64,000 bases of DNA. It comes from a bacterium (lineage in GTDB: Bacteria > Vulcanimicrobiota > Xenobia > Xenobiales > JADMJV01). The position numbers were made by a program, and so were the translations under genes. The stretch spans positions 1 through 64,000 of the forward strand of contig JAFEBA010000022.1 of NCBI GenBank assembly GCA_018266105.1. Direction: 5' to 3'. Positions 33,459 through 46,452 of the stretch are shown here, one piece after another. Positions within the stretch are counted from its first letter, which is position 1. Every line of letters begins with the position of its first letter. Below the pieces are notes generated by a model. That model was given only the letters and a program-made list of their open reading frames with translations, made no database searches and was not told the DNA's origin.

Positions 33459-33629
33459 TCACGCTGCCCACCACACCAGCAGGCCGGGAATGAACAGACC
33501 GATAAGCAAAAAGACGACCCATTCGATCTTGGAAATGTGGCCGAAGTCCTTGTTCGTATAGGAGGATACGGCGTCGATTCGTTTGACGAGCTCTACTTGC
33601 AGTGCCTGCTCGAAGAGCTCATCACTCAT
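33459..33629 (-). CDS. 56-residue single-span membrane protein in the permease operon
   Basis: A short frame encodes MSDELFEQALQVELVKRIDA at the start, then KDFGHISKIEWVVFLLIGLF and a short hydrophobic end (IPGLLVWWAA). The one membrane span is near residues 37-54, giving a soluble N-terminus. Its ATG overlaps the stop of the dehydrogenase gene (ATGAGTGA) and its stop lies two bases before the permease ATG, so it is fully embedded in the operon. I infer a small auxiliary subunit of the permease, as known for other transporter families, but no family was recognised. Confidence 0.75.
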   Translation of the reverse strand: MSDELFEQALQVELVKRIDAVSSYTNKDFGHISKIEWVVFLLIGLFIPGLLVWWAA

Positions 33630-34791
33630 AGATGCGGCGCACCACCATTTTGCGTTTGGCCATTTCCTGGAAATACGGTTCCACCGGGACGCACAGCTCG
33701 GGTGGCAGAACCCCGCGGCCGGTAATTTCGCCCCGGGCCAGCATCTGAATGCCCACCGAAGGTGGGCAGCCGGTGTCCACGTCCGAACCCATGCCCCATT
33801 CGGGAATTCCGGTCACGTAAAGGTCCATATTCACTCCGACCTTCTTGCCGTCTTTGACTCCGCGCACCAGCGAGCGCACCACTTCGACCTGGTTGGGCGG
33901 GCGCGTATCCGGGGCCGGTTTGGGTTGGCGGTTGAGTACGGCCAGCAGAAGATCCTGGGGCACCACTGTCTGGCCTTTGACACTGACCGGCTCCAGCGAA
34001 TTGACCCCGATTTCGCGCAGAAACCGCAATTTGGAAGTGAAGTCGCCGTGGAAAGCGATGGCGAAGGTGCATTCCTTGAGGCCCTTGGGCGCGTAGGAGG
34101 TGGACAGGGTGGCCACTTCCGAGTGGATCGTAAAGGCCGGGGACTGCACCCCCACGGGTGCGCCGAAGTCAACCGGAATTTCGCCGCTCATCGGCTCCAC
34201 GAAGGTCATCTGGCCGCCCGTGAAGACGGCAGCCGGCTTGGAAGCTTCTTCGAGAATGGTCTGGATCGAATAGGATGAGGCCAGACCTCCGTCGGATCCC
34301 GCGGCATTAAGGTCGATGCCGGCCACCTGGCAATGGATTTCGTGCACTTCGTCCATTTCGTCGGCGGCCATGCGGGCCAGCAGATTGGTGGTGCCGGGAG
34401 CGGCACCCATGCCAATCAGGGCCAGCAGGTCCTTGTCCAGGAAACGTTGATGCAGCTCTAGCTGCTTGTTGGTCATGTGGAAAAGGCCGCCTAAATCAGT
34501 ATAATGACAGCCGGCCTCCAGGGCCGCCTCCATGACCTCGAGGTTGAGCTGGTATTGAACCGAGTTGATGACGGCGAAGCAGCCCTTCAGGAGGTCCACG
34601 CTGGCGGCCCGGTCGCGCACGTCGGCGAAGGCGGCTGTTACACGGGGCGAACCGTAGGATCGGGCTACGGCCTGGGCCGCTTCCTGGTTGTAGTCGGCAA
34701 CCACGATTTCAAAGTCGCTGGTCTCGACCAGATCTTTGAGCGTGATGGCGCCCATGGCGCCGGCTCCCCCGAGCAGAACGACCTTTTTCAT
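33622..34791 (-). CDS. Saccharopine dehydrogenase-family oxidoreductase (possible lysine 6-dehydrogenase)
   Basis: The 389-residue NAD(P)-dependent enzyme has an N-terminal Rossmann motif (KKVVLLGGAGAMGAITLKDL) followed by the family's active region (AVINSVQYQLNLEVMEAALE, then HYTDLGGLFHM) and MGAAPGTTNLLAR. Relatives include saccharopine dehydrogenase and L-lysine 6-dehydrogenase. The start overlaps the aldehyde dehydrogenase stop (ATGA), and the stop overlaps the small membrane gene. With an aldehyde dehydrogenase next door, oxidation of an amine to an aldehyde/imine and then to an acid is a reasonable scheme; lysine to aminoadipate is one candidate. Confidence 0.86.
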   Translation of the reverse strand: MKKVVLLGGAGAMGAITLKDLVETSDFEIVVADYNQEAAQAVARSYGSPRVTAAFADVRDRAASVDLLKGCFAVINSVQYQLNLEVMEAALEAGCHYTDLGGLFHMTNKQLELHQRFLDKDLLALIGMGAAPGTTNLLARMAADEMDEVHEIHCQVAGIDLNAAGSDGGLASSYSIQTILEEASKPAAVFTGGQMTFVEPMSGEIPVDFGAPVGVQSPAFTIHSEVATLSTSYAPKGLKECTFAIAFHGDFTSKLRFLREIGVNSLEPVSVKGQTVVPQDLLLAVLNRQPKPAPDTRPPNQVEVVRSLVRGVKDGKKVGVNMDLYVTGIPEWGMGSDVDTGCPPSVGIQMLARGEITGRGVLPPELCVPVEPYFQEMAKRKMVVRRIYE

Positions 34792-36269
34792 TGGGGAATC
34801 TCCCCGGCCCGGGTGGCGTTAGGGAACCAGTAGGACTTGCGCGAGGGCATGTAATCCAGGTGCACATGCTTGGTTTCGCGGAAGGCGTCCAGGCCTTCCT
34901 CGCCCAGCTCGCGTCCCATACCACTCTTGCGCATGCCGCCAAACGGGGCGGCGTCGTTGTCGGTGAGCGGATCGTTAATCCAGAAGGTGCCAGCCTTAAT
35001 CTCGTTCATGGCCTTGAATGCGTAGCTCATATTCTTGGTGTAAATATTGGCGCCCAGGCCATACTCTGAAGTGGCGGCCAGCTGGATGGCTTCCTCGGCG
35101 TCTTCCACGGCCAGAATGGAGGCCACCGGTCCAAAGAGCTCTTCGGACACCGAGACCAGCCCGGTTTTGACTTCCGTCAGCACGGTGGGAGCCCAAAAAT
35201 AACCCGGACCCACATCCAGGCGCTTACCGCCGGCCAGCAGCCTGGCTCCGCCGGCAATGGTGCGCTCGACCTGGCTCTGAACCTTGTCCAGAGCCCGTTG
35301 GGAGATCAACGGACCGATGTCGGTTTTGGGATCCATGCCGTTGCCGACCACCAGCGAATTCGTGTAGTCCAGGAATTTCTCCAGAAATCTTTCGGCCACG
35401 TCCTTGACTACGTAGATGCGCTTGGCCGAGGTACAAACCTGGCCGGCATTGAGAAAGCGAGCCCAGGCCACACCCTGGGCGGCCACGTCCAGGTCGGCGT
35501 CCTCGAAGACGATAAAGGGGTCGATGCCGCCTAATTCCAGGTTGACGCGTTTGAGCTGGCGGGCGCAGCGTACGGCGATGTCGGTGCCCACAGCGGTGGA
35601 CCCGGTAAAGGCCACGCACGCCACTTTGGGATGTTCCACCAGGCGCTCACCCACCTCGGCCCCGGTTCCCAGCACCAGGTTGAGCACGCCGGGCGGCAGG
35701 CAGCCGAAGACCTTTTCACACAGGCGCAGGCTGGCCAGTGGGGTCAGTTCGGAAGGCTTGATCACGACGGTGTTTCCTGCTGCCAGAGCGGGAGCGATTT
35801 TCCAGCACATCAACAGCAGTGGATAGTTAAAGGGAACGATGCAGGAGACCACTCCCAGCGGTTCCTTAATGGTGAAGTTGATTTGATTCTCCGCCACCGG
35901 CGGCACCGAGTTTCCGTAGGAGTTGCGCCCGACCTCGGCATAGTAATCAAAGCAAGCGGCGCACCACTCGACTTCATCCATGTTTTCAATGCGCGGTTTG
36001 CCGCCTTCCAGAGTCAAGAGTCTGGACAGTTCGGCCACGTCGGCCCGCATCTGGCGAGCGATTTCGTGCATCAGCAGGGCCTTTTCCAGGCCCGGCAGGT
36101 TGCGCCAGTGGTGGAAGGCTTCAGCCGCGGCCTGAATGGCCGCGTCGGCGTCAGCCGAGGTTCCCTCCACCACCGTGTCTACTTTCTCAAGCGTTGCCGG
36201 GTTGACAATATCGCGCTGACCGCCCCCTTGGGACGCGGTCCATTGCCCATTGATCCAATGACTCTTCAC
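34788..36269 (-). CDS. NAD(P)-dependent aldehyde dehydrogenase
   Basis: The 493-residue aldehyde dehydrogenase superfamily enzyme oxidises an aldehyde to a carboxylate. Seen motifs are VPFNYP with Asn148, KPSE with Lys171, FTGSTAVG, the general base Glu245 in LELGG, and the catalytic Cys279 in NAGQVCTS. Residue 249 is Ile where most members have Lys/Ala. I use the GTG preceded by GGAGG at five bases; the upstream frame is a shadow. The Shine-Dalgarno sits in a hairpin (see the regulatory entry). First gene of the four-gene catabolic operon, although it is only 40 bases after the HEAT-repeat gene. Confidence 0.93.
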   Translation of the reverse strand: MKSHWINGQWTASQGGGQRDIVNPATLEKVDTVVEGTSADADAAIQAAAEAFHHWRNLPGLEKALLMHEIARQMRADVAELSRLLTLEGGKPRIENMDEVEWCAACFDYYAEVGRNSYGNSVPPVAENQINFTIKEPLGVVSCIVPFNYPLLLMCWKIAPALAAGNTVVIKPSELTPLASLRLCEKVFGCLPPGVLNLVLGTGAEVGERLVEHPKVACVAFTGSTAVGTDIAVRCARQLKRVNLELGGIDPFIVFEDADLDVAAQGVAWARFLNAGQVCTSAKRIYVVKDVAERFLEKFLDYTNSLVVGNGMDPKTDIGPLISQRALDKVQSQVERTIAGGARLLAGGKRLDVGPGYFWAPTVLTEVKTGLVSVSEELFGPVASILAVEDAEEAIQLAATSEYGLGANIYTKNMSYAFKAMNEIKAGTFWINDPLTDNDAAPFGGMRKSGMGRELGEEGLDAFRETKHVHLDYMPSRKSYWFPNATRAGEIPQ

Positions 36270-36271
36270 GT

Positions 36272-36287
36272 GCACCTCCGCAGGTGC
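36272..36287 (-). promoter_or_regulatory. Hairpin overlapping the aldehyde dehydrogenase ribosome-binding site
   Basis: The perfect 6-bp stem GCACCT / AGGTGC with loop GCGG contains most of the GGAGG Shine-Dalgarno (36275-36279) of the aldehyde dehydrogenase gene, ending three bases before its GTG. If formed in mRNA it would hide the ribosome-binding site. Whether it is regulated is unknown. Confidence 0.5.
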
Positions 36288-36309: not shown

Positions 36310-37569
36310 CTATTTCCCCCGGCTGGCCATGCGCCCCTCGAGGGTGCGCACGGCCGACTCCAGAGCGCAGCGGGCTTCTGGTTTGCTCTCGCAAGCCAAA
36401 GCCAGCTTGAGCTGGGCCAGGCTGGGTTCCAGACAATTGGTTTCACCCAGGCGGGCATTCTTGTCTCCCAGTCCGGCCACGGATTGTGCGGCTCGCATTC
36501 GGATCAAGGGGTCCTTGTCAGTCAGGCCCTGGCGGGCGATTTGCAAGGCCCGGGAATTGAAGCGAAAGGCGCGCAGGCTTCCCATTGCTGTGGCTCGGAG
36601 TTGCGGGGGCTGGCCTGTATCCTGGGCCAGTTGGCAGACCAAGGGGCAAATGCTCTTGTCCTCCAGGCCGTCCAGCACCAGAGCGCGTAGTCCCAGCAGG
36701 GCCACGGCTCGGACTTGATCGGGTTCTTGGGAATTTTTGACCATCGCGCTCAGCAGGGCCACCGAGCGCGGATCCTGAGTTGCCACCACCGCCACCAGCG
36801 AGGCTTCCCTGAGAGTGCCTGTGCTGGACTTGAGCAATTTCACCAGTTCAGGATAAGCCTGGTTGCCCCCCAGTTTGCCGTAGACGATCAGGGCGCTGCA
36901 GCGCACGCCTTCCTCACAGTTGACATCCAGGCCGTCCTGGCGAGCCTGCTGGCTGATGCGCTGACGGCCCTCCAGTACGGCCGCCAGATTCTCCTTTTCC
37001 AGCTTTTTCTCTCCATAGCAAGACAAATGGCGAAGGCGGATGGCGTCGTAAGCTCCGGCTCGAATCTCAGGGCTGTGAGTTCGATCCAACAGCCAGTCCA
37101 GGAAAGCCTTGTTTGCCAGCATAGACTGGTCGCGCAACAGCGTACTGGCCATGACCAACTGACTGGCCGGCGTGAGCCGGGCGTCGCGCAGCAAAGCCAG
37201 CAGTTCCTCGTCATCCAGCAAGGGCAGAAGGGCTTTGGCGGCATTATTACTGACGCTGGCGTCGGAATCGGCCAGCATGGGCGTCAGCACAGGAACCAGG
37301 GCGACGTCCTGGCGTTCCCCAAGCAGCCGGGCGCACTGGGCCCTGACTCTGGATCGAGGATGTTTGGTGCCCGCCACGATGGCGGAGGTGACGGTGTCGT
37401 CCTCGTTCTGGCGAAGCTCGGCAAAACAGTTGACGGCATCTGAACCGCTCAATCCTTCCACCAGGGCTTGAGGAGATTTGGGACCCGGCCCGGCCAGGAC
37501 TCCCCGGCCCAACCAGCCCAGCCCGCCGAGCAGAATCGCCAATAGAGCACCGATCAGCATTCGTTTCAT
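36310..37569 (-). CDS. Membrane-anchored HEAT-repeat protein, last gene of the secretion-like operon
   Basis: The 419-residue protein has one N-terminal membrane segment (MLIGALLAILLGGLGWLG). A long run of HEAT-like helical repeats follows (SRVRAQCARLLGERQDVALV; DASVSNNAAKALLPLLDDEE; LREASLVAVVATQDPRSVAL; DPLIRMRAAQSVAGLGDKNA). It should project from the membrane into the periplasm or cytosol as a protein-binding surface. The ATG overlaps the stop of the last GspF-like gene (ATGA). I infer a structural or pilotin-like role in the secretion apparatus. Confidence 0.82.
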   Translation of the reverse strand: MKRMLIGALLAILLGGLGWLGRGVLAGPGPKSPQALVEGLSGSDAVNCFAELRQNEDDTVTSAIVAGTKHPRSRVRAQCARLLGERQDVALVPVLTPMLADSDASVSNNAAKALLPLLDDEELLALLRDARLTPASQLVMASTLLRDQSMLANKAFLDWLLDRTHSPEIRAGAYDAIRLRHLSCYGEKKLEKENLAAVLEGRQRISQQARQDGLDVNCEEGVRCSALIVYGKLGGNQAYPELVKLLKSSTGTLREASLVAVVATQDPRSVALLSAMVKNSQEPDQVRAVALLGLRALVLDGLEDKSICPLVCQLAQDTGQPPQLRATAMGSLRAFRFNSRALQIARQGLTDKDPLIRMRAAQSVAGLGDKNARLGETNCLEPSLAQLKLALACESKPEARCALESAVRTLEGRMASRGK

Positions 37570-38396
37570 TGGGCGGCCTCCAAACACAAAGCCTGATAGT
37601 TCAGCCAGAATACAGCCATGGTGGCCAGGATCAAGAGGCCGACCAGGCCCAGGGCGGCCGGCTGGAGCCAGGCCAAGGTCCGAGAAATGTCTTCCTTCAG
37701 GTTTTCTTCCAGAGTGCGTGAGGTATCGGCCAGGGCTTTGGGTAGAGCCAGATGGTCGGCGGCCGCTTCGGCCGCCCAGCCGATCAGAGGGTCCCACTGA
37801 CATGACCGCAGGGCCTGGGCCAGGGAATCACCAGCCAGCAGTCGATTTTCCAGGGCTTCTGCTTGCTGGCGCACCATCCGGTCGGAGACGGCTTTGGCGG
37901 CCCAGTGACAGGCACGGGGCAGGTCCATCTCCAGGTCCAGCATCTGGGCCAGGTGACTGCACCACAACAATTGTTCAAAGCGGCTCCGACCCTTCTGTCC
38001 CAGCCAGGACCAGGCCAGATCCTGGTTGCGGGTGGACAGGTAGGCCCAAAGGGTCAGACCGAAAAGGAAAGCCAGGGCCAGTTTGATCAGGGCGGGAGAA
38101 TGCAGCACCTGCATGCCAGCCCCCAGACCCAGTAGCAACAGGGCCAGATAGACCAGCACCAGCCGGGGATAGCTGAGCAGGCGCCCGGCTTCACTGCGAA
38201 GGCGCTGCATTTCGTCGCAGTAGTTCGCCAGTCGCTGCAGCAGCAGATGGGGTTGGGTGCTACCCTGAGCCGCTTCCAGCCAGGCTTGATACTGGGTGGC
38301 CAGGGGAAGCGGCAGGGAAGAATCATCCCAGGGCTGGCCGGACTGGGCCAGCGCGGCCAGACTTCGAATCTGCTGGGCCAAAGAATGCTGACTCAA
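37566..38396 (-). CDS. GspF/PilC-like inner-membrane protein (third of three)
   Basis: The 276-residue protein has two T2SSF-like helical domains (about 1-60 and 150-240) around a membrane hairpin (LVLVYLALLLLGLGAGM; LALAFLFGLTLWAYL) with a final span (AALGLVGLLILATMAVFWLN). That is the layout of platform proteins of type II secretion and type IV pilus systems. It is shorter than classical GspF (about 400). The TTG start overlaps the stop of the preceding gene (TTGA); there is no better start. Confidence 0.78.
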   Translation of the reverse strand: MSQHSLAQQIRSLAALAQSGQPWDDSSLPLPLATQYQAWLEAAQGSTQPHLLLQRLANYCDEMQRLRSEAGRLLSYPRLVLVYLALLLLGLGAGMQVLHSPALIKLALAFLFGLTLWAYLSTRNQDLAWSWLGQKGRSRFEQLLWCSHLAQMLDLEMDLPRACHWAAKAVSDRMVRQQAEALENRLLAGDSLAQALRSCQWDPLIGWAAEAAADHLALPKALADTSRTLEENLKEDISRTLAWLQPAALGLVGLLILATMAVFWLNYQALCLEAAQ

Positions 38397-39319
38397 AGGT
38401 TCCCCACATTTCGCAGGGGAAGCAAGACGCACAGGCTGCACCAAAGAGCCATACCCCCCGCTACCAGATAGCCGCCAAAGGTCAGCAGACTGCCTGCCCA
38501 CTCCCGGTAAAATTCCAATTTCCGCTCGATCAGAGCGACCAGGGCCAGCACTTGGGAGGGGCGGAATTGTTGTTTCTCAGCCTGCAGCAGAGCCCAGCCC
38601 GCCAGCGGAGGCAGGCCGCTCCGGGCCCGGTCCAGGCTTGAACCCGAGCGCAGTTCTTCGGCAAGCTTCTCAAGGCCCTGTCTTAAGGGTTGGAGCACGC
38701 AGGCGCGACTGGCCAGCTCGATCGACTCCGGCAGGCCGGGCTGCAGGCGGTGAGCCAGTTCCAGCCAGCGAAAAAAGGCCACCGAATCTTGCATGGAAGC
38801 CAGGAATCCCAGCACCGGGACGTGCTGGCGCAGAGCTGGACGACGGAGCAGAGCCGCCAACAGCAACGGCAGGCAAAGTAAGCCCGGCAAACACCCCAAG
38901 AATAGATTGGAGGCCGTCAGCATTACTCGAATCAGACCGATGGATTCGCCCATTACGGAGGATTCAGCTCGGCTCACCAGGCTCACAAACAGCCCCAGGG
39001 CCAGAGCCGCCAGGTAAAGTAGCAAGGGATAGATGCTGACGTTGCGCCAGAATCGAAGCCGCCTCTGGCGATCGTCCAGCAGGTCAGCGCAGAGGCGAAG
39101 GTTGGCCGGAAAGTCGTCCCGTTCGGGAATCAATGCAGCCATAGGTTCCGGCAGTCCTCGGGCGATCTCGGACCAGCCGGCGCCGGCCTCGGCCTGGCTG
39201 GCGGCCTTCAGCCAGAGCTGGTTCTGGCTGCCGAGCCGCTGCAAGCACCAGGCCAGCGATTGCCCTTGGTCCAACAGTAAGGCCAGACTCCGGAGCTCAC
39301 GCGCTAGACCCGGCATCAT
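38393..39319 (-). CDS. GspF/PilC-like inner-membrane protein (second of three)
   Basis: The 308-residue protein has an N-terminal T2SSF-like helical domain (ELRSLALLLDQGQSLAWCLQ), then two spans (NVSIYPLLLYLAALALGLFV; FLGCLPGLLCLPLLLAALL). A second T2SSF-like domain (FFRWLELAHRLQPGLPESIE) and a C-terminal span follow. It is homologous in layout to the genes on either side, so the operon has three tandem platform-like proteins. The ATG overlaps the previous stop (ATGA). Confidence 0.8.
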   Translation of the reverse strand: MMPGLARELRSLALLLDQGQSLAWCLQRLGSQNQLWLKAASQAEAGAGWSEIARGLPEPMAALIPERDDFPANLRLCADLLDDRQRRLRFWRNVSIYPLLLYLAALALGLFVSLVSRAESSVMGESIGLIRVMLTASNLFLGCLPGLLCLPLLLAALLRRPALRQHVPVLGFLASMQDSVAFFRWLELAHRLQPGLPESIELASRACVLQPLRQGLEKLAEELRSGSSLDRARSGLPPLAGWALLQAEKQQFRPSQVLALVALIERKLEFYREWAGSLLTFGGYLVAGGMALWCSLCVLLPLRNVGNL

Positions 39320-40692
39320 AGACCCTCCTGCAGAATCGACAGGTAGAGAGACTCAAGCGGGATGTAGGCGCCCAAGGCGCAGGCGAAGACCAGCAAGCCG
39401 GTGAGGATTTGAAAAGCCTGGAGGTAGCGCCGCTCCAGGCGCAGGCGCTCCTCCGCCAGACGTCCCTCCAGATAGCCTTGAGCGGCTTCTAGACTGGCTT
39501 CGAGTTGGGAATGGGCTTCGCCGTAGGCTACCAGCGCGACCACTTCCGGGCTGAAGGCTGAACTGAGGATTTGGGCCAGCTGATCGCCGGCCAAGGCCCG
39601 TTGCGGGTCCAGGCTATTCTTAAAACGCGAGTGGGAGCAGGCCACTCTGGCCAGTTCCACCAGTTCCCCACTATCGCAGTTCAAGCGGATGCCGGCCAGC
39701 AGGGCGGTGATAGGCATCAGTTGCTCTTCCTGGCGGGCCAGTGGCCAGATCCAGGGAAGGCTTTGCAAGCGGTCGCGCAGCGCCAGCCAGCCTCCCTTGG
39801 CTCGAAGCCAGGGGGCACTCAGGCTAAAAATGCCCAGAGCCAGGAACACAGCCAGCAGGATGGTAAAGGGCAATGTGGAGTGGGAGCCGGGTCGCCCCAT
39901 GTCCCCCAAAGTGACCTGTTTTGTGAGCAAGGCCAGCAAGACAATAATCGGCAAGCTCAGTAAGGGGCGCAGCAGATGGGCTCGACGGGGTTGATTGGCT
40001 TCCAGCCGGGCCAGCACCTTGAGGCACTCTGGCAGGCGGCCACTGCGTTCTCCGGCCGCCAGCAGTCGGCTCCAGATGGGTGGAAAGTAGCTCTGGCTGG
40101 CGACGGCCGTGGAGAACTGGGCTCCGCAACGCAGATCGAAGGCCAACCAGTCCAGCACCACCGGTAGAGCGCCAATCCGGGTTGAAGAAATGCTCAGGGC
40201 GTCTGATCGCAGTTGCTCCAAAAGCTCCGATAGTGGGATTTCCGCCTCCAGGCCGGAGGCCAGTTGCTCCGCCAGCAGGCGTCGCTCCGATCCGGGGCCG
40301 GGGTGAACCAGGTTCCAGAGCACAAGTACCGGCAGCAGCGGTAAGGGGATCAACGCAAGCACCGCCGCCCATTCGGAGTCGAGCAGAGCCAGTAGCAAAC
40401 AGATCGCCCACCAGGAGGCGAACAGGCGATAAAATTTGCTCCACTGGGTGGGGGCCTGCAAGAGGGATTGAGAACCCTGGCGCGGTCGAGTCGGCAAGGA
40501 TGACCTTTTAATCAGGGGAACCAAGGTGCCGGTCACAACTCCGGGCAGTTGCACCAGGAAAGCCGCAGCCAGCGTAAAGAGCATGGCGGAAGACCAGCTG
40601 TCACCTTGCTCCCCCTGGAGCAGTGAAATCACTCCCAACAGTCCCGCCAGACACAACAAGGAAAAACTGGTCAGACGCAGCCAGCGGGTCAC
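39316..40692 (-). CDS. GspF/PilC-like inner-membrane protein (first of three)
   Basis: The 458-residue protein starts with two membrane spans (SFSLLCLAGLLGVISLL; AMLFTLAAAFLVQLPGVV) and two more further on (ICLLLALLDSEWAAVLALIP). A T2SSF domain follows (EQLASGLEAEIPLSELLEQL; IWSRLLAAGERSGRLPECLK with the family's GExSG-like core). A hairpin and a second T2SSF domain complete it (SPEVVALVAYGEAHSQLEAS). Of the three paralogues it most resembles a full-length GspF with an extra N-terminal membrane region. GTG start overlaps the previous stop (GTGA). Confidence 0.83.
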   Translation of the reverse strand: MTRWLRLTSFSLLCLAGLLGVISLLQGEQGDSWSSAMLFTLAAAFLVQLPGVVTGTLVPLIKRSSLPTRPRQGSQSLLQAPTQWSKFYRLFASWWAICLLLALLDSEWAAVLALIPLPLLPVLVLWNLVHPGPGSERRLLAEQLASGLEAEIPLSELLEQLRSDALSISSTRIGALPVVLDWLAFDLRCGAQFSTAVASQSYFPPIWSRLLAAGERSGRLPECLKVLARLEANQPRRAHLLRPLLSLPIIVLLALLTKQVTLGDMGRPGSHSTLPFTILLAVFLALGIFSLSAPWLRAKGGWLALRDRLQSLPWIWPLARQEEQLMPITALLAGIRLNCDSGELVELARVACSHSRFKNSLDPQRALAGDQLAQILSSAFSPEVVALVAYGEAHSQLEASLEAAQGYLEGRLAEERLRLERRYLQAFQILTGLLVFACALGAYIPLESLYLSILQEGL

Positions 40693-41024
40693 GGAAAGTG
40701 GCTCCGTTGTTCAAATTCTATTTTCCCGCTGCGGCCCCGGCAAACAATGCTGACCGAGAGGCCCGAACGACGCAGATGCAAGTCGAAACTCCCGTCCATT
40801 TCCGGCGAATGGAAAACTTCGTTGCCCTTCCAAAGTCCTTGAGATAGCTGGGCTCGAGCAAAGCGACAGCCGGAAGCGGCCAGGGTCCGGGCGCGCAGTC
40901 CATTCACCTGCAGTTGCACCTGGTCGCGAGCCTGGTCCAGGCGCAAGGCCGCCGCCAGCGCCAGCGCAAAAAAGAGGGCGGTCAGGCTGAGAGTCCAGAG
41001 CAAAGAAATCCCTCGGCTTTTCAT
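40689..41024 (-). CDS. Pseudopilin-like protein (GspK/PilX-like)
   Basis: The 111-residue protein starts MKSRGISLLWTLSLTALFFA, a prepilin-like hydrophobic helix with a short positively charged leader ending in Gly; residue +5 is not the usual Glu, as in GspK-type minor pseudopilins. The soluble domain is small (LAASGCRFARAQLSQGLWKG). It is likely to sit at the tip of a pseudopilus. Overlaps its neighbours by ATGA and GTGA. Confidence 0.72.
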   Translation of the reverse strand: MKSRGISLLWTLSLTALFFALALAAALRLDQARDQVQLQVNGLRARTLAASGCRFARAQLSQGLWKGNEVFHSPEMDGSFDLHLRRSGLSVSIVCRGRSGKIEFEQRSHFP

Positions 41025-41422
41025 CGCTCCTCCGCGGCCGGCTGATCGAACTCGAATCGGCCGTTCTCAAACTCAAAGAGCAGATGAAGCCGTCCGTCTC
41101 GGCGCACAGCCGCAAAATCTACCAGACCTTCGCTCAGCAGCGGCCTGCCCTGGCATAGCAAGCTGCCCTCTCGGTAGATCACCAGGACCTGGCCGTGCTG
41201 CGTGAGGCCCCGCTGGTCCGGCAAAATACGGGCCTCGGCCCGGCCAAGATTGAAGATGCGAAAGGCTGCCCGTCGGCACTCTTGCAGGCGGTCTGCATTT
41301 CGCATGGTCTGAGCGTGGTGACGAAGGGTGGTTCGAATCAGGCCTACGAATCCAGTCGAAATGACCGTGATCAAGCTCAACACGATGGCGAGCTCCAACA
41401 AGGTAAAGGCGCGTTTACTCAA
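41021..41422 (-). CDS. Pseudopilin (prepilin N-terminal methylation motif)
   Basis: The 133-residue protein starts MSKRAFTLLELAIVLSLITV, a canonical type IV prepilin-like signal with Glu at +5 after the peptidase cleavage site. A hydrophobic assembly helix is followed by a small globular domain (VDFAAVRRDGRLHLLFEFEN). It probably forms part of the pseudopilus shaft and needs a prepilin peptidase not present in this window. Confidence 0.85.
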   Translation of the reverse strand: MSKRAFTLLELAIVLSLITVISTGFVGLIRTTLRHHAQTMRNADRLQECRRAAFRIFNLGRAEARILPDQRGLTQHGQVLVIYREGSLLCQGRPLLSEGLVDFAAVRRDGRLHLLFEFENGRFEFDQPAAEER

Positions 41423-42159
41423 GGCGCCACCCGCAAAGTAGAGACCGTCACTCGGCCGTGGCCTGCATAGTTTTCCTGAAGCCGCAGTAGCTTGAGGTTG
41501 GAAGGGGCTTCCTGAGGACGCAATCGATCATCCACAAAGGTTCCGCTCAGAAGGTTGCTCCGTTGAGCGCCGCGATAGTCGATCATCAAGACTTTGCCAG
41601 CAGCCGAAGGGCCCAGCTGCAAGTCACCTTTGGGTCCGAGGTTCCAGTCCGTAAAGGGCCTCAAGCTCTCTCCCTGCGCCGTCAGGATCGCTTCGATTCG
41701 AACGGCCGGACCATTGTCCAGCCTGAGTTGGCCACTGGGACCGACCCGATGAGTCTCTCCCCGGTCGCTGAGAAAGCAGGTGTAATTGAGGCTGAGCAGT
41801 TGCCCGGCCAGCTGGCTGCCCACCTTGATGCGGCCGCTGGTTTTTTCCAGTTTTTCAATCTTCAAATCCGCCAGCGACCCCTCTAGAGGCTTGAGCTGGA
41901 GAGAATGGGGATCAAAGTCTGGCTGCCCAAGCTGTAACCAACCCTGAGAGTCCGGTTTTAGCACCTGCGGTGGGAGCTGGTCAAAGGGAACCGCTTGCAG
42001 GCGTTGTAGCTGCTTTTCCGCTTGCCTGGTCGCCATGAGCATCTCTTTCTGGCGACGCAGGGCCTGGGAGCTGCCCATCAGCTCCATCTGGGCACCGAGT
42101 AGAAGCGCCAGCAGAGCAATGCCGATCATCATTTCAATCATTGTGAAAGCTCTCTTCAC
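41419..42159 (-). CDS. Pseudopilin (prepilin N-terminal methylation motif)
   Basis: The 246-residue protein begins VKRAFTMIEMMIGIALLALL, a prepilin-like signal with Glu at +5, followed by a longer globular domain with RQAEKQLQRLQAVPFDQLPP and a beta-rich end. The GTG start overlaps the kinase stop (GTGA); the frame upstream is a shadow of the kinase. The long soluble domain suggests a GspJ-like minor pseudopilin. Confidence 0.84.
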   Translation of the reverse strand: MKRAFTMIEMMIGIALLALLLGAQMELMGSSQALRRQKEMLMATRQAEKQLQRLQAVPFDQLPPQVLKPDSQGWLQLGQPDFDPHSLQLKPLEGSLADLKIEKLEKTSGRIKVGSQLAGQLLSLNYTCFLSDRGETHRVGPSGQLRLDNGPAVRIEAILTAQGESLRPFTDWNLGPKGDLQLGPSAAGKVLMIDYRGAQRSNLLSGTFVDDRLRPQEAPSNLKLLRLQENYAGHGRVTVSTLRVAP

Positions 42160-45100
42160 AACTTGCTCCACTGGTCGGGATCGAGAAATTGTAAGCGCCC
42201 TCGGCTGTCCAGGCGAGCCCCGGTCCAGCTTTGAATCTGGCCTGTGACCCTGGCCGGGGTCACCTGTTCTCGGGAGAGAGTCCAATGCTCTAGTTTGCCG
42301 TTCTTGCGCAGAAAAAAGGAACCTGAATCGGCGATCTTCATCTCCTCGATTGGTCCTTGCGGGCCTCTCAAGGCGGTCGGTAGCTCCGCCTCTTTGGGCT
42401 GGCCGGCCAGCAGCCAGAGGTGCAGGTGTTGCTCCGAGTCTAGGCTGAGAGCCGCGCGGGAGTCCCTGGAAAGGGCGACTTTCTTGACCGGCAAGCGGTG
42501 TTTCAGGGTGGCAAGCAGTTTTGGCTCGGCATAACCGGTGTCAAAGTTGCTCCACAACTGGCACTCGCCCTGACTGGTCGCACACAGCAGCTCCTGGTCT
42601 CCGGCGATGTCCGCCAGCTCGAAAGGAGCCTGCCACTCGGCCATGATGGCCAGTTCCTGGGCCAGCATGGTCCAGGTTCGTCGGTGGACCACCAGCATTC
42701 GCGGGCCGTTCCAGATGTAGTGCTGAATCGGATGCAGCCAGCGGTGGTCCAGGCTTTCCAGGCCCCGGCGGGTGACAGCCACGTAGCCAGTGCCCAGTGT
42801 CACCAGCTCGAGGACCGGGGCGCTGCATTCTCTGGACTCGATTTCACCCTGGTCGTTGACCCAGCTGACTCGTTTGCCTTCGGCCAACCACCTGGAATTC
42901 AGAGCCGATAGGGTCGGCCCCCGAGGACTGACATCCAGTTCCTGCTTCTCATTCCAGCTCCAACCCGCGCCGGTTGGTGACTCGACGGACTGAATCGAGC
43001 GGCCCGATTGGACATCCAGCACGTGGGCCTGGGTGCCCTGCTGCACAGCCACTCGACCGTCTTTGAGCAGCATTCGGGTGGAGTTTACACTCCAGGCCAG
43101 CTTCCAGCCGGGCGCCTGCTGGTTGTCGAAGACTCGCAGGTTGCCGTCGCTGCTGACCAGCCTCTGGCCGTCCGCCGAGAAGGTAAACTGCTGAACCTGC
43201 TGGCTGTGCTCCAGCACGGAACTGGCCGCCTGGTGGCTGCGAACATCAAATACTTGCAGGCGCCGCCCCGAATTCACGGCCAGAAAGCCTCCGTCGGCGG
43301 AAAAGCTGGTCTTCGACCAACCCGTTAGCCAGCCGTCGCAGACAGGTTGGTCGCCGCAGTAAGCGATCTGGTGAGCCGGCCCCAGGCTTCGGATGGTTTG
43401 TCCGGTCAGGTCGCTTTCGACGGCCTGACCTGTCTTGTCGATTCGTAAGATTCGCTTCCCGTTCGGACTCAGGCAGCCTTGCTGGCCTGAGGCAGTGCGG
43501 GAGAGCCTGAGTGGAGAGGCATCCCAAAGAGAAATTTCCCGGCCGCTAAGCAGCAGTTTTTTTCCGTCCTGGGACCAGGAGACCCGGCTTGGAGTGCCCT
43601 GAATTTGAAAAGAAGCTCCGCCGGGAAAGAGCTTGCAGTGTCCATCCTGGCTGGCCGCCAGGAGCCGCGAGCCGTCCGGGCTGTAGCCAAGTAGGCGGCA
43701 AACGCGTCGGGCCGGGGGTAGGCCCGTCAGCAACGAGCCTGGCTCAGCCAACCAGTGGGATTCGGCCGAAATCCAGTTGCCGTCCGCCTGTTTGCGCCAC
43801 AGCATTACCTGTCCACTGCTGCCAGCCGCGGCGAGTTCTTTGCCGTCTGGTCTCACCGCCAGACAGGTCACCTCGGGCAGCAGGGCCAGTTGCTGGCGGT
43901 GCTGGTCTTGCCAGACCAGAATCTGGCCGTTCTGACCGGCCAAAGCCACCACCTGAGCGTCGGCGCTGGCCTCCAGGGACGAGGTTGGAGCGGGCGGACC
44001 CCATTCATACCGGGTCAGTGGATAGTGGTAAGTGGCCAGCTCGTCGCCCAGGGTCTTGGACTCAGGGTCATGCTGAAGAGCTTGAGCCCACCAGAGCATG
44101 GCTTCAAAGCGATTTCCCCTGCTGTCAGCCACGGATCCCAGCGTGGATTCCAGTTGGCCAAAGCGAGCCAGCTCGCCGTTCAGGGCGGTTTTAGAGTCCT
44201 CCACTTGTTTTTCGGTGGCCCTCAGTTTTTCTTCGCGCTGGCTGAGCTGCGCTTGCTGTTTGTCGAGCTGGCGCCAGGCCAGACTGATGGTGCCCATGAG
44301 CAGCAGCACGGCCGTGACTCCAACCGCGAACGGTCGGGGATTGCGTTTGACGAACAGCCTGCCTCGATAGAGGGGGGACCAGGGGAGTTTGATGTTGAGG
44401 GGCAGTTGCTGTTGTCGTCTGGACAGATCCGTCAGGACTTCGTCAGCGCTGGCATAGCGAAATTCTGAGAGCGGTTCCAGGCAGCCTTCGATAATGGCGG
44501 CCAGTTCGGAGTCAACCTGCGGGGCCAGTTCTCTCAGAGGGCAGAGGGGGTTCTGAGAAACCTCAAAAGCAAACTGCAGACGCTGCTTCATCGTATAGGA
44601 CTCAAGGGCCGAGCGGGTGCGATTTTGCAGTCTTGGAACCTGGCCGGTGAGCAAACGGTAGGCGGTTGCCCCCAGGGCATAGATGTCCCAGGCGGCCGAG
44701 GGATCCGCATTGCCTTTGTCCAGGGCCCGCAGTATCTGCTCCGGCGGCATGTAGCCCAAAGTGCCGAGATTATAGCCCCCGGACTGGGTGGCGAAGGATT
44801 GCCCGAAATCTGCCAGACGCAGGCGACCCTGGCCGTCCAGCAAGAGGTTGGCCGGCTTGAGGTCGCCGTGCAAAATACCCTTCGAGTGAATGTAGCTCAG
44901 CCCTCGACAGATCTCTTCCAGCCAGATGACCAACTGATCCGGGGTGGCCTGGATTTCTCCCAGTGAACCGCTGAGCAGCGGCATCACAAAGAAAGGCGGC
45001 GTATTCTCGAGATTGGCATCCAGCAGCGTCACCACATTGGGATGTTCGGCCACCTCCATCAGGCGCTGCACCTCGGCCCGGAAGAGTTCCCAGTCCATGG

Positions 45101-45314
45101 CCTGGTGGCGCGAAAAGATCTTCACCGCCACCTTCTGACCCGTGCTTTGCTGCACGCCCGCCCAGGCTTCGCCAAAGGTTCCCGCGCCCAGTCGACTTTG
45201 CAGGCTGTAACCGGGTAGTTTGGGCGGCTCAGTGGCGCCGGAAAGGGCCTTGGACTGACTGATCAGTTCCGCCCCCTGGGCCATGGTCGCGTCCAGTGTC
45301 AACTCTTCTTCCAT
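42156..45314 (-). CDS. Transmembrane Ser/Thr protein kinase with WD40-type propeller
   Basis: The 1052-residue protein has three parts. The cytosolic eukaryotic-like kinase (about 36-300) has a P-loop GAGTFG (43-48), Lys65, catalytic loop HGDLKPANLLLD (Asp151) and DFG (Asp169). The usual HRD is HGD, so this is a non-RD kinase. A membrane span (about 328-347, FAVGVTAVLLLMGTISLAW) follows, then a coiled coil. The last ~650 residues are WD40-like repeats (LAVRPDGKELAAAGSSGQVM; LGYSPDGSRLLAASQDG). Probably it senses through the propeller and phosphorylates operon partners. It lies between the ATPase and the pseudopilins; 4 bases separate it from the ATPase gene. Confidence 0.92.
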   Translation of the reverse strand: MEEELTLDATMAQGAELISQSKALSGATEPPKLPGYSLQSRLGAGTFGEAWAGVQQSTGQKVAVKIFSRHQAMDWELFRAEVQRLMEVAEHPNVVTLLDANLENTPPFFVMPLLSGSLGEIQATPDQLVIWLEEICRGLSYIHSKGILHGDLKPANLLLDGQGRLRLADFGQSFATQSGGYNLGTLGYMPPEQILRALDKGNADPSAAWDIYALGATAYRLLTGQVPRLQNRTRSALESYTMKQRLQFAFEVSQNPLCPLRELAPQVDSELAAIIEGCLEPLSEFRYASADEVLTDLSRRQQQLPLNIKLPWSPLYRGRLFVKRNPRPFAVGVTAVLLLMGTISLAWRQLDKQQAQLSQREEKLRATEKQVEDSKTALNGELARFGQLESTLGSVADSRGNRFEAMLWWAQALQHDPESKTLGDELATYHYPLTRYEWGPPAPTSSLEASADAQVVALAGQNGQILVWQDQHRQQLALLPEVTCLAVRPDGKELAAAGSSGQVMLWRKQADGNWISAESHWLAEPGSLLTGLPPARRVCRLLGYSPDGSRLLAASQDGHCKLFPGGASFQIQGTPSRVSWSQDGKKLLLSGREISLWDASPLRLSRTASGQQGCLSPNGKRILRIDKTGQAVESDLTGQTIRSLGPAHQIAYCGDQPVCDGWLTGWSKTSFSADGGFLAVNSGRRLQVFDVRSHQAASSVLEHSQQVQQFTFSADGQRLVSSDGNLRVFDNQQAPGWKLAWSVNSTRMLLKDGRVAVQQGTQAHVLDVQSGRSIQSVESPTGAGWSWNEKQELDVSPRGPTLSALNSRWLAEGKRVSWVNDQGEIESRECSAPVLELVTLGTGYVAVTRRGLESLDHRWLHPIQHYIWNGPRMLVVHRRTWTMLAQELAIMAEWQAPFELADIAGDQELLCATSQGECQLWSNFDTGYAEPKLLATLKHRLPVKKVALSRDSRAALSLDSEQHLHLWLLAGQPKEAELPTALRGPQGPIEEMKIADSGSFFLRKNGKLEHWTLSREQVTPARVTGQIQSWTGARLDSRGRLQFLDPDQWSKL

Positions 45315-45318
45315 CAGC

Positions 45319-46452
45319 CTAAAATCCCGGAATCACTCGCATTGCTTCGTTGCGGGTGGTCTGGTGGCGCTGCACTCGGAGTCGGGCCCGCTCGATCAAG
45401 CTAAATTTGGGTGGGGGTAGGGGAGCCTGGCTGAGCACGGCCTGACGAAACTGCTGGTCGACGGTCAAAAGCTCGGGCACGGCCGCACGCCCGCGAAAGC
45501 CGCTCTGGCGGCAGACCGGGCAGCCCACCGGCTCGCCCTGGTTTTGACAGTTTGCGCAGAGCTGACGCAGCAGGCGCTGGTAGACGACCCCGCTCAGGCT
45601 GGCGGCCAACTGATACGGTTGCACCCCCATTTCCAGCAGGCGCGGCACGACCCCCAAACTGTCCCGAGCGTGGAGCGTCGAGAAGACCAGGTGGCCGCTC
45701 AGACTGGCTTGCACGACCGCGGCGGCCGTCTCGGGATCGCGGATTTCGCCCACCAGAATCAGGTCGGGGTCCTGGCGTAAGATCGAGCGCAGGCCGGTGG
45801 CGAAGGTCATACCCACGCCGCTCTGGATGGAGGTCTGATTGAAATCGGCCACCACCACTTCCACCGGGTCTTCCAGGGTAACGACGTTCAGGCGTGCGCC
45901 CGGAGTGGGCTCCAGGCGTTGTTGGTGTTGTCCCTGCAGCCAGCGCATCACCGCCAGCAGGGTGGTGGATTTGCCGCTCCCGGCTGGTCCGGTGGCCAGC
46001 ACCAATCCCTGAGGTTGGTCCACCATTCTCTGCAGTTCTTCCAGTTCTTCGGGCCAGAAGCCAAGCTCTTCCAATGAACGCAGTTGGTGGTCGGGCCGCA
46101 ACAGACGGAGCACGGCCACTTCTCCAAACTGAGCCGGGGCCACGGCCACTCGAACTTCCTGATCGTTTACGCGCCATTTGCCGTCCTGTGGAGTGGCGTG
46201 TTTATAGGAGGCCAATCTGGCGCCGTTTTTCAAACCCACCAGCAATCGGCCATAGAGTTCGGAGGGCAACTCAAAAGAACAACTCAATACCCCTTCGCGG
46301 CGCAGCAGAACTTCAACCGAGCCCGGGGCCGGACGCAAATGCAGGTCGCTGGCTTCGGCTTCGGCTGCGTAGCGGACCAGCCATTCAATGGCCGGGCGGG
46401 CGTCGAAAGTCTGAGGCGGCTCCAACAGGGGAGCCAGTTCGCTGGGAATCAT
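45319..46452 (-). CDS. GspE/PilB/PilT-family secretion ATPase
   Basis: The 377-residue hexameric AAA-type ATPase drives pseudopilus assembly or retraction. Seen are Walker A GPAGSGKS (155-162), Asp box TLEDPVE, Walker B DPDLILVGEIRD (228-239) and His box STLHARD (258-264). Four cysteines (299, 302, 311, 314) in the C-terminal domain fit the GspE-type zinc finger. The N-terminal region has ASDLHLRPAPGSVEVLLR. It lacks the N1 domain of GspE, so it is shorter. First gene of the operon; a possible inverted repeat lies just upstream. Confidence 0.92.
   Translation of the reverse strand: MIPSELAPLLEPPQTFDARPAIEWLVRYAAEAEASDLHLRPAPGSVEVLLRREGVLSCSFELPSELYGRLLVGLKNGARLASYKHATPQDGKWRVNDQEVRVAVAPAQFGEVAVLRLLRPDHQLRSLEELGFWPEELEELQRMVDQPQGLVLATGPAGSGKSTTLLAVMRWLQGQHQQRLEPTPGARLNVVTLEDPVEVVVADFNQTSIQSGVGMTFATGLRSILRQDPDLILVGEIRDPETAAAVVQASLSGHLVFSTLHARDSLGVVPRLLEMGVQPYQLAASLSGVVYQRLLRQLCANCQNQGEPVGCPVCRQSGFRGRAAVPELLTVDQQFRQAVLSQAPLPPPKFSLIERARLRVQRHQTTRNEAMRVIPGF

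Follow-up and report, generated by a model that had tools for sequence, protein, structure and literature searches.

The 64,000-nucleotide stretch analysed here (the window; contig JAFEBA010000022.1 of assembly GCA_018266105.1, from a bacterium of the Xenobiales) carries on its minus strand an operon of nine intact genes, running from 46452 to 36310, in which three full two-domain GspF proteins stand in place of the usual single platform. This is the new element, and it occurs in a poorly known bacterial group. We regard the operon as real and conserved, and as a variant of the type IV filament machines with a probable heteromeric platform. More specifically, we put at slightly better than even the chance that the three platform proteins, F1, F2 and F3, form an obligate hetero-oligomer seated on a hexamer of the operon's GspE-type ATPase.

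Three platform proteins in one operon

The original prediction, made from the sequence without database searches, was of a nine-gene pilus- or secretion-like operon at 36310-46452, with 4-base overlaps everywhere except between the ATPase and the kinase. All nine genes were found intact at those positions (Table 1), including the expected HEAT-repeat protein, and seven of the eight junctions are 4-bp overlaps. The start codons that yield overlaps include GTG at 42159 for pilin-like protein 1 (PP1), TTG at 38396 for F3 and ATG at 37569 for the HEAT-repeat protein. The ATPase stop at 45319 and the kinase start at 45314 leave a 4-bp gap (45315-45318). The conserved core consists of seven genes, those for the three pilins, F1, F2, F3 and the ATPase; the kinase and the HEAT-repeat protein are additions.

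That the operon encodes three GspF-like proteins is borne out by hidden Markov models. All three exceed the curated T2SSF cut-off of 25.2 bits, and each contains two T2SSF stretches. Profile comparison to PilC of M. xanthus (3jc8) gives 1e-47 for F1, 2e-27 for F2 and 5e-30 for F3, and the hydrophobic segments of all three also fit a two-domain platform with three core transmembrane segments. F1 carries additional N-terminal hydrophobic helices. The top twelve structure matches to its AlphaFold2 (AF2) model, which has a predicted local distance difference test score (pLDDT) of 76, are all GspF, PilC or TcpE, and the model indicates that F1 still has the GspF fold. Since each protein has two T2SSF stretches, none is a half platform of the Tad type, and a split platform was rejected on that ground. 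We also rejected the notion that F1 or F2 is a decaying duplicate: the ratio of nonsynonymous to synonymous substitution rates is 0.09-0.28, which is purifying selection on every F1, F2 and F3 platform tested, and the conservation is deep.

The three proteins differ in what they retain of the platform pore motif. In PulF the channel constriction consists of Tyr168-Pro in transmembrane segment 1 (TMS1) and Glu370-Pro in TMS3, and the two pairs are conserved in GspF/PilC (PMC10790770). Both were present in 15 of 15 GspF proteins sampled outside the phylum; of the 50 other platforms in the window genome, both pairs occur in 36 and Glu-Pro in 45. Every F1 lacks the two pairs, whether in the tree set (0/10) or in a wider one (0/16, two of these sequences covering only one of the two sites), and F2 and F3 each retain part of the motif. 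Tyr-Pro is present in 11 of 11 F2 proteins and Glu-Pro in four, only in genomes G010-G013 of another family; the window F2 has kept the first and lost the second. All ten F3 proteins have Tyr-Pro or His-Pro and none has Glu-Pro, in place of which stands Gln-Pro in type B cassettes and Ala-Pro or Gly-Pro in type A (the types are defined below); the window F3 keeps Tyr-Pro and Gln-Pro. In an ungapped register anchored on TYxxPT, the tyrosine position of F1 is occupied by arginine in 8 of 8 type A proteins; two alignment settings disagree on this, and the possible replacement of the pore tyrosine by arginine is a lead only.

Conservation and descent of the cassette

The window genome (G000; 8.4 Mb in 151 contigs) has a single cassette, in the order ATPase-kinase-PP1-PP2-PP3-F1-F2-F3-HEAT, which we call type B. 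It recurs in G002, divided over two contigs and with the HEAT protein kept at 47-48% identity, and a copy in G004 extends from the kinase through F3 with no ATPase or HEAT gene adjoining. Type A, PP1-PP2-PP3-F1-F2-F3-ATPase, has no kinase. It is found in G001, G002, G003 and G004 of the same genus, in G010-G013 of another family of the order, and in G016 of another family of the class. The core order is complete in all of these except G012 and G013, where the cassettes are fragmentary or cut at contig ends and the order is partial. Since G002 and G004 hold both types, type B is a paralogous branch. A PP1 profile detected further cassettes in other families of the phylum, with three platforms in G020, four in G026, and two each in G023 and G027. 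G012 is identical to bacterium UBP9_UBA1432 across a whole 5-kb contig. UBP9 has been placed in Candidatus Eremiobacterota, a lineage with outer-membrane genes (PMC6664022), to which the window genome would then probably belong too; the NCBI name for the phylum holding Ca. Xenobia is Vulcanimicrobiota.

A FastTree phylogeny of 111 platform proteins, rooted at the midpoint, separates F1, F2 and F3 into clades of their own (support 0.998, 0.999 and 0.989). Each clade includes its G016 member, from which it follows that the platform duplication is old and that its products have been passed on jointly. Cassettes with several platforms from other families branch beside the three clades. The ATPases give a corresponding picture. 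All 14 cassette ATPases form one clade (ultrafast bootstrap 100 in an IQ-TREE analysis of 69 ATPases), set apart from the ordinary GspE and PilB proteins that this genome and its phylum also encode.

Among 80 GspE loci from many phyla, in which platforms on the same strand within 5 kb were counted, 41 had no platform (a number inflated by many short contigs), 38 had one, one had two overlapping open reading frames, and none had three. A genome collection was also scanned with the ATPase profile, by means of two short peptide patterns. Among the matches listed, UBA1432 is the one close relative and the rest are ordinary GspE, a result that leaves absence outside the phylum unproven. In the account of Denise et al. 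(PMC6668835), paired platforms are confined to Tad and some archaeal systems and are explained by gene fission, and the only earlier cases of multiple platform proteins that our search of the open-access literature turned up were Tad-type pairs.

GspF is also amplified outside the cassette. The window genome encodes about 51 full GspF proteins (102 T2SSF domains; for example at L174, L208, L213 and L043), 44 of which have no GspE-family ATPase within 6 kb. Many are solitary or lie beside pilin-like, Ser/Thr kinase or two-component genes. The expansion is common to the relatives with 7-8 Mb genomes, which have 58-94 strong domain matches each.

The ATPase, the pilins and the accessory proteins

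The ATPase has a Walker A motif (GPAGSGKSTT), a Walker B motif (ILVGEIRD) and a compact CxxC...CxxC element, and at 377 residues it is too short for an N1 domain. It can be aligned to PilF, GspE and PilB structures with E values down to 2e-64. The earlier label of GspE/PilT type stood in its first half. The T2SSE match and the tree place the protein with the GspE/PilB extension ATPases, and the GspE and PilB models give about double the score of the PilT model (307 bits for GspE, 146 for PilT), which rules out a PilT-type retraction ATPase. It falls below the equivalog cut-offs for GspE (630 bits) and ComGA (215 bits versus 300) and far below that for the TadA family (39 versus 373).

The three proteins first called pseudopilins do resemble class III prepilin-like subunits, to decreasing degrees. 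PP1 has Glu5 and an N_methyl match above the cut-off; its family is present across the phylum and is diagnostic of the cassette. Its AF2 model (pLDDT 87) has a helix at 7-54 followed by a large beta-rich part; a search of the PDB for the fold of PP1 gave no significant match (best E 0.046), and we assign the protein no function. PP2 has Glu5, a weak N_methyl match and a TIGR02532 score of 20.3 bits against a cut-off of 16.3, and is kept in the cassettes. PP3 has neither Glu5 nor an N_methyl match, only a weak match to GspK, and both its position and its sequence are kept. A second PP1-like gene in G026 (L202:9314-10093, contig C9) is isolated, with no platform or ATPase in the stretch fetched.

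The nine genes include no secretin, prepilin peptidase, GspC, GspL or GspM, just as the original prediction had it. A search of the genome found three secretins and one recognised A24 prepilin peptidase (on C74), all outside the operon. We presume that this single peptidase serves the operon's pilins. None of the operon's genes was recognised as a major pilin, so one may come in trans, as perhaps may a secretin. One secretin gene in the genome is an orphan whose neighbours encode a Ser/Thr kinase and an ABC transporter with an FHA domain (L044:4288-10279, contig C67).

The second gene of the operon encodes a membrane kinase with a WD40 part, as had been proposed. The kinase domain spans residues 36-293 and is followed by one transmembrane segment at about 329-347, with the WD40 repeats on the opposite side of the membrane, a topology that would place them outside the cytoplasm. 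The motifs GAGTFG, VAVK, HGDLKPAN, DFG and PPE are intact in G000, G002 and G004. The three proteins are 44-57% identical over about 740 residues, have one transmembrane segment each, and are encoded at the same place, directly before PP1; the G000 copy is longer by about 250 residues. The gene is thus neither a pseudogene nor a non-conserved insertion. It is absent from most cassettes, including type A and those of all the other genera of the order, and for that reason it cannot belong to the core mechanism and counts as an accessory, confined to one derived branch. The HEAT protein, which has a hydrophobic anchor or signal at its N-terminus, is likewise an accessory of type B.

The proposal that apparatus assembly is phospho-regulated is weakly supported, given the absence of the kinase from most cassettes; genomic context makes regulation of the machine by the kinase plausible. 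In the window genome, a kinase is adjacent to 14 of 51 GspF proteins where 6.4 are expected (P ~0.003; the placement test is a simple one, in which the window counts too and the lengths of some contigs are approximate). In G020, kinase, HEAT and TPR domains occur together in one protein, encoded 0.7 kb upstream of the cassette (L159:2779-4818), while the kinase and the HEAT protein have separate genes in the window operon. It is also possible that the kinase is a hitchhiker inserted in the operon and unrelated to control of the machine, a reading that we take seriously without favoring it and that is compatible with a heteromeric platform. The genome has 125 kinase matches (about 120 kinases), most cassettes do without one, and the operon encodes no substrate, phosphatase or FHA partner. 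Against a hitchhiker stand the intact gene kept before PP1 in three genomes, the genome-wide enrichment beside GspF and the kinase-HEAT protein of G020. A literature search on the control of type IV pili by Ser/Thr kinases gave no relevant report. A parallel is the threonine phosphorylation pathway of type VI secretion (PpkA, Fha), in which a membrane Ser/Thr kinase is encoded with a secretion machine. One study describes that pathway as a positive regulator of type VI secretion (PMC5995506). The kinase-with-machine arrangement is shared, but the operon has no Fha or phosphatase and encodes an unrelated machine. An anti-phage defence operon was considered and rejected, the PADLOC matches being only to generic kinase, AAA and HEAT.

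Table 1. Genes of the operon, in window coordinates, and a protein encoded near type A cassettes
Feature	Position	Strand	Length (aa)	Best support
Extension ATPase, GspE/PilB/ComGA-like	45319..46452	-	377	T2SSE 9.5e-85 (Pfam)
Ser/Thr protein kinase with WD40	42156..45314	-	1052	Pkinase 2.8e-41, WD40 4.9e-15 (Pfam)
Pilin-like protein 1 (PP1)	41419..42159	-	246	N_methyl 8.9e-5
Pilin-like protein 2 (PP2)	41021..41422	-	133	N_methyl 7e-4, slightly below cut-off
Pilin-like protein 3 (PP3), GspK-like	40689..41024	-	111	GspK model 1.3e-4, below its cut-off
Platform F1	39316..40692	-	458	T2SSF 48.5 bits
Platform F2	38393..39319	-	308	T2SSF 35.6 bits
Platform F3, TTG start	37566..38396	-	276	T2SSF 62.6 bits
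HEAT-repeat protein	36310..37569	-	419	HEAT_2 1.3e-20
Protein near type A ATPase	L155:6462-7658; L156:5184-6359; L038:14548-15750; L039:14015-15265		~400	

In each of the genus's four type A cassettes, the last entry of Table 1 is encoded close to the ATPase end; two copies were scanned against Pfam, with no match. Directly downstream of the operon in the window, on the same strand (33622-36275), is an aldehyde dehydrogenase gene with a probable start near 36275, which overlaps by 4 bp an apparent saccharopine-dehydrogenase-type gene that is followed by a permease-like gene. G002 also has the aldehyde dehydrogenase, 89% identical, beside its type B cassette.

Composition of the platform and relation to known machines

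The operon shares features with each of several known machines and coincides with none of them. Like type II secretion, it has a GspE-type ATPase, the GspF fold, a GspK-like tip pilin and a diderm host lineage; unlike type II secretion, it has three GspF proteins rather than one, a short ATPase, no clear GspG major pseudopilin, and no dedicated secretin, GspC, GspL, GspM or peptidase. The Com pilus of monoderms (ComGA, ComGB, ComGC-G) is similarly minimal, with a short ATPase, a platform, small pilins and no alignment complex, and the Gln-Pro of type B F3 matches that reported for the Com platform (PMC10790770). However, Com has the single platform ComGB and different pilins, the ATPase scores below the ComGA cut-off, and the host lineage here has an outer membrane. 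Tad (type IVc) systems also have more than one platform gene, and a heteromer of three TadB-TadC (CpaG-CpaH) pairs has been proposed (PMC12019362). TadB and TadC are gene-fission halves with one T2SSF domain each (PMC6668835), whereas F1-F3 have two domains each and arose by duplication; neither a TadA-type ATPase nor a pair of single-domain platforms is found in the operon. Finally, the ATPase and platforms are homologous to those of type IVa pili (PilB, PilC, PilM-Q), but the window genome has a separate locus of that kind elsewhere, with a peptidase, PilQ secretin, its own PilM, PilN and PilO, and a single PilC with both pore pairs intact.

Modelling and cross-linking of single-type platforms give trimers seated on a hexameric ATPase, and for that reason the heteromeric platform is the best reading of three co-inherited platform genes. 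Cross-linking and modelling show PulF to be a trimer, with a 6:3 model for its complex with the PulE hexamer (PMC10790770), and Pelicic has proposed a three-jaw model of the platform (PMC10191384). The hetero-oligomeric platform suggested from the sequence at the outset is supported indirectly by the monophyly and co-inheritance of F1, F2 and F3, their fixed order, purifying selection and their different pore-motif remnants; the physical complex is inferred from these. The stoichiometry would probably be 1:1:1, with one F1, one F2 and one F3 sitting on the ATPase hexamer. ATP-driven movements of the hexamer would turn or push the three non-identical jaws, and these would assemble PP1, PP2 and PP3, the last as a GspK-like tip protein, into a short pseudopilus or tip, the pilins having been processed beforehand by the genome's peptidase. 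In type B, the membrane kinase and the HEAT protein would be added and would probably gate the machine by a transmembrane signal, the least supported step of the scheme. Several points weigh against this reading. The TMS1 motif register of F1 is uncertain by a few residues, the structure predictions made here are of monomers only, and the platform trimers of known systems are themselves largely model-based. Relatives with two to four platforms (G023, G027, G020, G026) mean that a strict 1:1:1 ratio is not universal in the wider family. The operon also lacks a recognised major pilin and a secretin.

Two other arrangements of the platforms have to be weighed. Separate homotrimers of F1, F2 and F3 might alternate on one ATPase, each serving one pilin or stage. 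Three pilins do match three platforms in type A and B operons, sharing of an ATPase is plausible in a lineage with many platforms per ATPase elsewhere, and the G004 type B copy has no adjoining ATPase. Yet a homotrimer of F1 would have neither pore pair in any of its three subunits, the number of platforms varies from two to four while the pilins stay constant at three, and strict co-inheritance with overlapping genes suggests matched amounts; we consider such interchangeable homotrimers unlikely. Still less probable, in our judgement, is that F3 alone works, as a homotrimer, with F1 and F2 reduced to pseudo-platforms of a regulatory or structural kind, which might replace, for instance, the GspL/M or PilN/O ring that the operon does not encode. 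Only F3 in the window keeps Tyr-Pro together with a polar-Pro pair; G020, G026, G023 and G027 have an F3-like partner with the full motif beside a degenerate F1, and the extra N-terminal helices of F1 would suit such a role. But in G010-G013 it is F2 rather than F3 that keeps the full pair, so that the working subunit would have switched, and the F1 and F2 profiles match PilC along its length.

A bolder proposal can be entertained, though we hold it only tentatively and at rather less than even confidence: the cassettes would represent a distinct, undescribed machine family with an obligate F1-F2-F3 heterotrimer, the ion-pore motif divided among its subunits, possibly an arginine for the pore tyrosine in type A F1, an asymmetric motor derived from the three-fold symmetric one of other systems, with jaws that are perhaps pilin-specific, and kinase gating in one branch. 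For all type IV filaments, it is an open question how the platform couples ATP hydrolysis to growth, whether it is a trimer and whether it acts as an ion channel. With three genes for three trimer positions, and with the pore motif evolutionarily lost from defined subunits, each position could be mutated separately. A stable 1:1:1 complex, should one exist, would support the trimer model directly, and if that complex works without a full pore motif, the idea of a platform ion channel powering assembly would need rethinking.

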